In this document: positions 60,954 through 63,721 of the stretch, piece by piece
Layout of the letters: each line of letters begins with the position of its first letter
Numbering within the stretch: the stretch's first letter is position 1
Source of the DNA: Rubripirellula reticaptiva
GTDB taxonomy: Bacteria > Planctomycetota > Planctomycetia > Pirellulales > Pirellulaceae
Length of the DNA stretch: 64,000 bases
Assembly (NCBI RefSeq): GCF_007860175.1
Contig: NZ_SJPX01000003.1
Span: 1 to 64,000, forward strand
Direction: 5' to 3'
Notes under the pieces: generated by a model
What the model saw: only the letters and a program-made list of their open reading frames with translations
What the model was told of the DNA's origin: nothing
Databases searched by the model: none
Made by a program: the position numbers and the translations under genes

Positions 60954-61610
60954 GTGCCTGATCGATCAACGCCAAGTGATGATAAGCCGATCGACCTGCC
61001 GCAACCTGCGGTCGGTCGGCTAAGTCTGTATTACCGCGAATTGCACCGGCTGCTTGAAAGCCAGCAGGGCGGCGTCAACAGTCAACAGCTCGGCAAGTTG
61101 GTCAATGTTTCTCCGGCAGTCGTGCGTCGCGACCTCAGTGCGCTTGGCACGATCGGCCGGCGTGGTGTCGGCTACGACATTGCTCGGTTGATCGAACGGA
61201 TCGGCGACGTGCTGGGGTCGGGAATGCAGTGGAAGGTGGTTCTGGTTGGCGTTGGGTCGCTAGGCGATGCGTTGCTGCGGTATCGCGGCTTCGAACGACT
61301 TGGGTTCCAACTTAGTGCCGCCTTTGACAACGCAGCCAATCGAATTGGTTCCACGATTGCGGGCGTCCGGGTGCTCGATGCCGCCTTGATCGAAAGCTTT
61401 TTGGCTGCCGAACCAGCCGAGCTGGCGATCCTAGCCGTTCCAGCCGAGTTTGCGGCCGACATCGCTGACCGGTTGGTGGGATGCAAAATCAACGGGATTT
61501 TGAACTTTGCCCCCACTACTTTAAAGTTGCCACCGAAGGTCGCCGTCGTCAACGTCGACCTGGCCAGCGAGTTGCAGCGGCTAGCATTCGCCATTCAGAC
61601 GCAAAAATAG
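60954..61610 (+). CDS. rex: redox-sensing transcriptional repressor Rex
   Basis: A 218-residue Rex from a GTG start. The N-terminal winged helix (GRLSLYYRELHRLLES, VSPAVVRRDLSALGTIGRRGVGYDI) is followed by the NAD(H)-binding Rossmann domain. That domain has LVGVGSLGDALLRYRGF and the AFDNAANRIGSTIAGVRV segment. Rex binds DNA when NADH is low and releases it when NADH rises, adjusting respiratory and fermentative genes. It follows the sugar dehydrogenase gene by 13 bp and is probably on its transcript, which would tie its expression to sugar oxidation. Length and domain order are normal. Confidence 0.95.
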   Translation: MPDRSTPSDDKPIDLPQPAVGRLSLYYRELHRLLESQQGGVNSQQLGKLVNVSPAVVRRDLSALGTIGRRGVGYDIARLIERIGDVLGSGMQWKVVLVGVGSLGDALLRYRGFERLGFQLSAAFDNAANRIGSTIAGVRVLDAALIESFLAAEPAELAILAVPAEFAADIADRLVGCKINGILNFAPTTLKLPPKVAVVNVDLASELQRLAFAIQTQK

Positions 61611-61694
61611 CGAAAAGAACCCCACCAACCGCTCAAGTCGGAGCCAAATCGAGCCGAAAACAACCGAACCAAAGAATCCATGCAAATGTCCTCT

Positions 61695-61722
61695 TTGGCG
61701 TCAGCGAAAGTCATGCTAAACT
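61695..61722 (+). promoter_or_regulatory. candidate promoter of the tRNA-Gln gene
   Basis: TTGGCG (61695-61700), a 16-base spacer and TAAACT (61717-61722), each matching the sigma-70 consensus at 4/6 positions. Transcription would begin near 61729, about 14 bases before the tRNA. The integrase frame of the opposite strand ends inside this site (stop at 61711-61713). Confidence 0.45.
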
Positions 61723-63120
61723 TCGCCCAGACGACCCATCACTACCCCATGGTGTAATTGGCAACACATCTGATTTTGGTTCAGACATTCTAGGTTCAAG
61801 TCCTAGTGGGGTAGCTAAGTACTCAATCCCTCGTGTTCCCGGCACATCTGTAGCCGGAATCACGAGGTTTTTTTGTGCCGTGATTGGCGTAGATGCCCGT
61901 AGATTTGCACAGATGGGACCGCCGGTGGGACCGCCAAATGCGTTGTTGACGCTTTCTACCTCAATTGGGTCACCCGTCATCGTGCTTGCGCCCATGGACC
62001 AATGCTCGTCGGTAACCTGCAGGTAGTGCTTCTCAGCCGTCTTGCTGCTATGACCCAGCCACGCGTTGATGACGTGATCCTGCCGGTGCTCCTGAAGTTC
62101 GGTCCGCCGTGTCGCCCTCAAGTTCTGGAACGTCTTGGGCCAAGGCTCAACACCAGCAGATTCGATGATGCGGTTAAGCTGGGTGCCAAGGTTCGACAAT
62201 CGGTGATACCGACCTATGCAACGTTTCGTGCCATCGTCAGCCGCATCAAATGACGCATCCAGAAACGGTTTCAATTCGGGGAAAATCGGACAGAACCGCA
62301 GTCCGGTCTTGGGTGAGTTGATCCGCATCTTGCCAACATCCCAGAGGATGTCGCCCCAGTTCATCACCAGGATTTCGCATCGTCGAAGTCCCCCAAATCG
62401 AGCGAAAGCGAATACCAATCGCCAATCATGGTCGGGACACCCCGAAAGCACCTTCGCGGCTGTGGCTCGATTGATGTAGTGATCACGCTCGCGGTTCACT
62501 TCGGAACCCGTCCGAACACCAGAAAAGGGACTCTCGTTCAGCAATCGATCCTTCACGGCTTCCGCAAACATCGTTTTTGCTCGCTTGACGTGCTTAGAAA
62601 CCGTCGCGGGTGCCATTGTCTTTACGACATTGCCGTCTTCATCCAGCTTTACTGGCCGCGCCAATAGCCAACGTCGCCACCGCTCTGCTTCCGCAACCGT
62701 GATGGCCGATAAGAGATGTCGCTCGCCAAACCTTTCGACAAGCAAACGCCGGGCGTGCCCATAGTTGTCAATCGTTCCAGTTGCCAAATCCGATCGGCTT
62801 GCGATGTACGCATCACAAAACGGTCCCAAAAAACGCCCATTGTCGCCTAGCAAGCGATCTCGCTTGGAATCTACCAGCCCAAGATTCGCCAACGAATCAA
62901 AGAGCGGACCCTCAAGTTCCACTGACCATCGAATCGTATCGGGTTCCGGCGATGCGCCGGATTTTTTTGCCCGTACCAATTCATCGACATGCCGAGCCAC
63001 TGTTTCCGCCCTGCGCTTACTGGCGTCCGCCAGCCAAAGCGAACGCCGCTTCCGATTCAGGTAGAAACGTAACCGCCAACCAGATCGGCCTCGGTCCTTC
63101 TCTTGACGCAAACTTGCCAT
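61711..63120 (-). CDS. tyrosine recombinase/integrase with tail read from tRNA-Gln antisense
   Basis: A 469-residue site-specific integrase. An N-terminal basic AP2-like/arm-binding part (GWRLRFYLNRKRRSLWLA) and a SAM-like core-binding domain (residues ~95-200) precede the catalytic domain. Catalytic residues: Arg246 in GGLRRCEI, Arg335 in FQNLRATR (the preceding family His is Gln332), His357 in LGHSS and nucleophile Tyr366 in KHYLQV. The set is intact apart from that His. Beyond ~375 the sequence is no longer typical. Residues ~416-431 are antisense to a terminator, and residues 436-460 (ATPLGLEPRMSEPKSDVLPI and onward) are exactly antisense to tRNA-Gln. That tail is probably a by-product of integration. 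Confidence 0.92.
   Translation of the reverse strand: MASLRQEKDRGRSGWRLRFYLNRKRRSLWLADASKRRAETVARHVDELVRAKKSGASPEPDTIRWSVELEGPLFDSLANLGLVDSKRDRLLGDNGRFLGPFCDAYIASRSDLATGTIDNYGHARRLLVERFGERHLLSAITVAEAERWRRWLLARPVKLDEDGNVVKTMAPATVSKHVKRAKTMFAEAVKDRLLNESPFSGVRTGSEVNRERDHYINRATAAKVLSGCPDHDWRLVFAFARFGGLRRCEILVMNWGDILWDVGKMRINSPKTGLRFCPIFPELKPFLDASFDAADDGTKRCIGRYHRLSNLGTQLNRIIESAGVEPWPKTFQNLRATRRTELQEHRQDHVINAWLGHSSKTAEKHYLQVTDEHWSMGASTMTGDPIEVESVNNAFGGPTGGPICANLRASTPITAQKNLVIPATDVPGTRGIEYLATPLGLEPRMSEPKSDVLPITPWGSDGSSGRSLA
61743..61814 (+). tRNA. tRNA-Gln, anticodon UUG
   Basis: A complete 72-nt cloverleaf: acceptor stem TACCCCA/TGGGGTA (61743-61749, 61807-61813) and D stem GTGT/ACAC. The anticodon stem TCTGA/TCAGA has loop TTTTGGT, giving anticodon TTG. 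The T arm is CTAGG-TTCAAGT-CCTAG, and discriminator G is at 61814. CCA is not encoded. Its 3' end abuts the integrase region, marking it as the probable attachment site of the element to the right. Confidence 0.95.
61829..61874 (+). terminator. rho-independent terminator after tRNA-Gln
   Basis: CCTCGTG (61829-61835) pairs with CACGAGG (61861-61867), with a further inner stem CCGGC/GCCGG, followed by seven T residues. It ends tRNA transcription 15 bases beyond the 3' end. It lies antisense to the coding region of the integrase (its residues ~416-431). Confidence 0.88.
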
Positions 63121-63430: not shown

Positions 63431-63703
63431 TCATTCCCGGCTCGCTGATTCCAATGCAGTGATCACCGCTGCGGGCCTAAACCGGCGGGCTCGACCGACC
63501 ATGATGCTGGGAATCAATCCAGATCGAACCGCGCGATCAATCGTAGGACGTGAGATGCCCGCCAGCCGCGCCATTTCATCGCCATCGACCAGCATCGGCA
63601 TGGCTTCGGAAGCGTTTTCCGACCGTAGCAGTTTAGCGACCGCTTCGGCTGTGTCTCGAATGAGCTCATCGCGGTTAGTGTCGCGGATCAACAAGTCAGC
63701 CAT
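63431..63703 (-). CDS. excisionase-like helix-turn-helix protein
   Basis: A 90-residue protein from ATG 63703; the frame is open to 63721. The C-terminal half is a MerR/excisionase-type helix-turn-helix: VDGDEMARLAGISRPTIDRA followed by RSGLIPSIMVGRARRFRPA, the pattern of DNA-binding domains in Xis proteins. The N-terminal half is a charged helix. Its place just upstream of the integrase on the same strand fits a recombination directionality factor or regulator of the element. Confidence 0.8.
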   Translation of the reverse strand: MADLLIRDTNRDELIRDTAEAVAKLLRSENASEAMPMLVDGDEMARLAGISRPTIDRAVRSGLIPSIMVGRARRFRPAAVITALESASRE

Positions 63704-63721
63704 GAGCGTCGTCCTTGGCAA

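Follow-up and report, generated by a model that had tools for sequence, protein, structure and literature searches.

A planctomycete integrase gene that very probably contains its own attP site and exchanges a conserved C-terminus for a host-encoded tail on integration

What does an integrase gain, or lose, when its reading frame runs antisense through the tRNA gene into which its element has integrated? The question arises from the window, a 64,000-nucleotide stretch of the genome of Rubripirellula reticaptiva. The integrase (Int), a tyrosine recombinase, is encoded in its integrated form from ATG to stop at 61711–63120 on the reverse strand (469 aa). The integration target is a tRNA-Gln gene with anticodon TTG, placed by ARAGORN at 61743–61815 on the forward strand and by Rfam at 61743–61814 (60.7 bits). 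These boundaries bear out the statement of an earlier note on this DNA that Int residues 436–460 are the antisense of the tRNA; the reading frame, described there as passing antisense through tRNA-Gln and its terminator, is real. The terminator (61829–61874, forward strand) is carried by the element and present on the tRNA strand only. It consists of a hairpin at 61829–61867 (−22.9 kcal/mol, z −5.6), spanning about Int residues 419–431, plus T7.

Int contains the SAM-like core-binding and catalytic domains of tyrosine recombinases and matches the phrog_1 integrase at 1.8e-32. In a Pfam scan, the matches reach up to residue 373, with PF13102 above the cut-off and PF00589 just below it (7e-6). 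Residues R246, K271, R335 and Y366, assigned by inspection, are invariant among the aligned relatives, and H357 is found in many members. The position of the box-II histidine, assigned in the same way, is occupied by Q332 in the window Int and by Q, V or I in relatives; throughout much of the family, a Q, V or I stands ahead of NLR and the histidine has apparently been substituted. The AlphaFold model shows a mostly confident fold that ends near residue 390. In its N-terminal part, three strands form a sheet accompanied by a helix, which together are taken as arm-binding-like. Upstream of int lies a gene for an excisionase-like HTH protein (63431–63721, reverse strand; PF12728, TIGR01764). Of 60 homologous loci, no more than 16 have an xis-like gene detected within 3 kb upstream, and two or three of these detections are doubtful.

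Some phages are known in which the 3′ end of int simply overlaps attP. The overlap in the window could be ordinary: int would merely end beside attL, with the frame open into the tRNA by chance and neither tail functional. Int residues 391–469 are indeed predicted to be unstructured (pLDDT about 30), and the motifs found there follow from the DNA, GGPTGGP from arm repeats lying inside the frame, KK from the T-tract of the terminator and GLE from the T-arm. Convergent int–tRNA pairs are also common (438 of 1273; PMC2951348). The overlap itself, however, recurs too regularly to be due to chance, since, of the top 29 homologous loci found in relatives, 26 have a tRNA that the int frame enters antisense, and so do 64 of the 80 loci in named genomes, where 11 tRNA specificities are involved. 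An ordinary overlap would explain the integrated tail. It would leave unexplained a conserved in-frame hairpin that appears to be under protein-level selection at the far end of many elements, as described below, and is considered unlikely.

Homologues of Int are present in 78 of the 99 genomes searched; those in named genomes belong, judging by title, nearly all to Planctomycetota. Among the named-genome loci, the int stop codon falls within the tRNA in 58, and 51 share the ‘GLE’ reading frame. At the sensitivity used, no homologue was found in IMG/VR or in plasmids.

The earlier note had suggested that the right-hand att repeat be located and the circular form rebuilt. The att core of the window, AAGTCCTAGTGGGGTAGCT (61798–61816, forward strand; 19 bp), covers the tRNA from the T-loop onwards and ends just beyond its 3′ terminus. 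A whole-genome search yielded one good copy in the right orientation, at C3:503366–503384, which represents attR, and rebuilding the circular form from it brings out a longer, element-encoded Int C-terminus. Repeats to the left of this core are identical to those beside int at 23 of 24 positions. In a close relative, G001, the DNA that comes after rex and tRNA-Gln is homologous to the right flank of the window's attR. This DNA forms the 3′ end of a different integrase in G001, which gives the locus the look of an accretion hotspot. The junction between rex and tRNA-Gln (window 60954–61815; loci L064–L076 in relatives) is a repeated integration site in the genus, and several relatives carry different integrases there.

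In the scaffolded assembly, attL and attR of the window are 441 kb apart, although the long-range order of contig C3, including this distance, may be unreliable. Scaffold gaps of 100 N are located on the contig at 80452, 409388, 457370 and 507280. A single 441-kb mobile element between the two sites was rejected because the interval contains genus-conserved and ordinary chromosomal genes, tRNA-Met, tRNA-Val and scaffold gaps; what supports the pairing of attL with attR is thus the identity of cores and arms, and distance plays no part in it. Position C3:993079 was also rejected as attR, being the remnant of a related element at tRNA-Lys. At this place (L002; C3:992777–993190), the remnant of a related integrase, with 53% identity over residues 297–444, adjoins tRNA-Lys and a similar downstream terminator. 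A further tyrosine recombinase (L010:15752–16861; C3:75752–76861), which resembles an integron integrase, is encoded beyond the right end of the window. The DNA that follows it, at about 77.3–77.8 kb, recurs many times in G001 with about 70–80% identity, and is possibly an attC-like cassette array.

When the window core is joined to attR, the int frame runs on for 63 codons into the other end of the element (SNDAGERCFSHTHETAVPRAVPSTAILDDQTRELMRLWELLDEGGRADLLAIARRVAPTAKPV), and the reconstructed circular-form Int comprises 504 aa, compared with 469 aa in the integrated form. In the integrated copy, residues up to 441 come from the element or the shared core, and residues 442–469 with the stop (61711–61797, reverse strand) are host DNA, the antisense of the tRNA 5′ part and its upstream flank. 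The proposal that integration supplies int with its 3′ coding end and stop thus stands for these residues and the stop; it does not extend to the terminator and the tRNA 3′ end, which belong to the element or the core. A difference in the tail between integrated and circular forms, also expected earlier, emerges from the attL/attR pairing here and in 27 other elements. Paired cores in the latter are 16–26 bp long. As in the window, each is a block of identity running from the T-loop roughly to the 3′ end of the tRNA, the pattern of T-loop integration into tRNA genes. The int frame is open in 24 of these 27 elements; their tails have a median length of 8.5 codons when integrated versus 61.5 when circular, and the circular tail also exceeds in length what either of the other two frames gives at that junction (Wilcoxon p 9e-4 and 1e-4). 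Computation thus establishes the exchange of tails at the sequence level. The catalytic domain, including Tyr366, precedes the core in the gene and is left undivided at attL by integration. The earlier reading missed that the host tail apparently replaces a real, conserved, element-encoded protein segment of the circular form.

The extensions of the circular forms share a motif, roughly L..hW..L.e..R..hL.hA. Their similarity is frame-specific, with a mean local score of 48.9 versus 31.6 and 31.5 in the other frames, and codon-position identity is 0.39/0.49/0.32 (positions 1/2/3) versus 0.29/0.26/0.29 expected by composition. With leave-one-out profiles, 27 of 30 extensions outscore all 200 shuffles, in a set that omits five junctions without an obvious motif (G066a, G066c, G066d, G032 and G076b) and in which some elements owe their initial detection to a profile. 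When only the elements defined by their junctions, with no profile used, are considered, 16 of 23 beat all shuffles; the remaining seven have no clear motif, with L218 borderline, L227 failing and the five junctions named above counted as lacking it. Conservation of the lost segment at the protein level is thereby demonstrated computationally, as far as sequence comparison can do so. The extension matches no Pfam family above the cut-off; for a representative extension, taken from L240, structure prediction gives a confident two-helix hairpin. A profile built from six extensions finds further copies in other genomes, several of them on the strand of the integrase and 5–17 kb upstream of it, which is the placement expected of the element's other end. 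Most of the inspected right ends found by profile have a tRNA 3′-end fragment in frame before the hairpin segment, and some weaker matches have no adjoining recognisable tRNA fragment. One profile match, G031:C91:304090, was rejected as the junction of its element, the actual junction being elsewhere.

The segment at attR might instead be a separate small gene, expressed when the element is integrated and matching the int frame only incidentally. An in-frame ATG does precede the motif in 7 of 19 attR copies; it is absent from the other 12, and the window's own attR has no ATG, GTG or TTG ahead of the motif, which makes independent expression in the integrated state unlikely. Since, in addition, the frame of the motif is continuous with int through the core in the paired elements, a separate gene is highly improbable. 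The segment could also serve as a stability or degradation signal, integration altering the lifetime of Int rather than its activity. Editing of a C-terminus through attP at tRNA sites, involving ssrA-like tags, has a precedent (PMC9262239). The final residues of the circular tails, however, vary (KPV, QSN, PTT, TAR, VVG and others) with no consistent LAA-like end among them, and the conserved part is, according to the model, a two-helix hairpin; we regard a stability signal as rather unlikely.

The putative arm sites, too, lie within the int frame, on either side of the core. The P arm in the window consists of two direct repeats 12 bp apart, of the GGGACCGCC type (61911–61934, forward strand), at GGPTGGP within the Int frame, and the same pair occurs in the P′ arm by attR. 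The core is accordingly flanked on both sides by paired 12-bp direct repeats, the putative arm-type sites of an attP. In most elements, one and the same pair of repeats, spaced 12 bp apart, occurs in both the P and the P′ arm with its orientation unchanged. The repeats differ between elements and match within an element (mean score 17.4 for own pairs versus 8.4 for cross pairs), and in 20 of 28 elements the own score is above the 95th percentile of cross pairs.

A natural contiguous remnant is found on contig G017:C118, where the C-terminal half of int, arm, core, arm and hairpin follow one another in one open frame; the hairpin scores 27.5 bits against a profile built without it. This sole natural contiguous copy is 5′-truncated, the 5′ part of int having been lost. 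Contig L272 was rejected as a natural full-length copy, as its C-terminus gives just 2.3 bits with the hairpin profile, which is no match. The family integrase on this 10.9-kb contig (L272:4644–6287) is accompanied by phage-like genes and no tRNA; its frame passes a core-like sequence and ends in a different C-terminus. The contig is possibly an unintegrated phage form.

Taken at the level of sequence, it is very probable that a family of tRNA-targeting planctomycete elements carries attP within int and that integration swaps a conserved C-terminus for a host tail and stop, an architecture that the computational analysis establishes. The whole attP (P arm, tRNA terminator, T-loop core and P′ arm) would lie inside the int frame and be followed by the C-terminal helical hairpin. 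The circular form would encode full-length Int, 504 aa in the window element. Recombination at the tRNA would cut int at the core; the catalytic part would remain at attL, gaining a short tail and stop from the antisense of the tRNA, and the hairpin segment would remain at attR. Full-length Int may be the integration-competent form, with the hairpin supporting assembly or activity of the integrative complex. Truncated Int could then not re-integrate and would serve, at most, excision with Xis; integration would be self-limiting, and the Int protein would report its own state. On balance, an attP within int, loss of the hairpin on integration and self-limiting integration together probably form the best explanation. 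The swap may control the direction of recombination, a possibility that the earlier note also raised. Whether the swap has a regulatory role at all is evenly balanced. Speaking against such a role, integration leaves the catalytic domain whole, and the truncated enzyme may just be functional. The chances appear equally divided on the broader proposal that a bacterial Int family, widespread in planctomycetes, encodes the entire attP with its arm sites and terminator as a self-writing switch at the level of the protein, with integration on one side and maintenance or excision on the other.

Under this interpretation, integrases across a bacterial phylum would lose a conserved segment on integration, and databases of chromosomal genomes would hold truncated Int with host-tRNA tails, not the full enzyme. 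The annotated Int, if expressed, may be the wrong form of the enzyme. The caution in the earlier note that such antisense peptides may mistakenly enter databases as a protein family seems reasonable. The swap would explain the recurring ‘GLEP...’ tails of this planctomycete family and offers a directly testable protein-level mechanism of directionality control.

Several known systems are comparable in part. In the mycobacteriophage Ms6, a 26-bp core encompasses the tRNA T-loop at the gene 3′ end (PMC1762012), as the planctomycete core covers the T-loop near the gene 3′ end; unlike the situation here, the available text of that report describes neither int coding across attP nor loss of an Int segment. 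In KplE1 intS (PMC2951348) and ICEKp1 (PMC13023037), transcription of int depends on the att junction, integrated versus excised. There, too, the junction alters the integrase between the two states, but on the promoter side of int, whereas the planctomycete change is in the protein, at the gene 3′ end. In the integration-dependent immunity of the mycobacteriophage BPs and its relatives, attP lies in the repressor gene and attB is a tRNA gene, and integration gives the repressor an altered C-terminus and a new stop, removing an ssrA-like tag (PMC9262239). The planctomycete elements share the attP within a coding gene, the tRNA attB, the altered C-terminus and the new stop; they differ in that attP is in int itself, not in a repressor, and no ssrA-like tag is evident. 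The ‘suicidal’ integrases of SSV1, pTN3 and pT26-2 carry attP within the gene that encodes them, in many cases at a tRNA gene. Integration breaks this gene in two, separating the N-terminal part from the catalytic C-terminal part and leaving two inactive pieces; according to a review, self-disrupting recombinases are exclusively archaeal (PMC8371274). The planctomycete attP would likewise lie inside the int coding sequence and the gene be split on integration, but the catalytic domain remains intact, with the C-terminal hairpin lost and a host-encoded tail gained. The archaeal family Phage_integr_3 (PF16795) is not matched by the window Int, only PF13102 and PF00589 being above noise in the Pfam scan. 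A literature search among papers free of subscription found no bacterial integrase reported to lose a conserved segment through its own integration. In the planctomycete elements, the gene that reaches across attP encodes a bacterial integrase; the self-disrupting integrases met in this search come from archaea, and their cut falls at another place in the protein.
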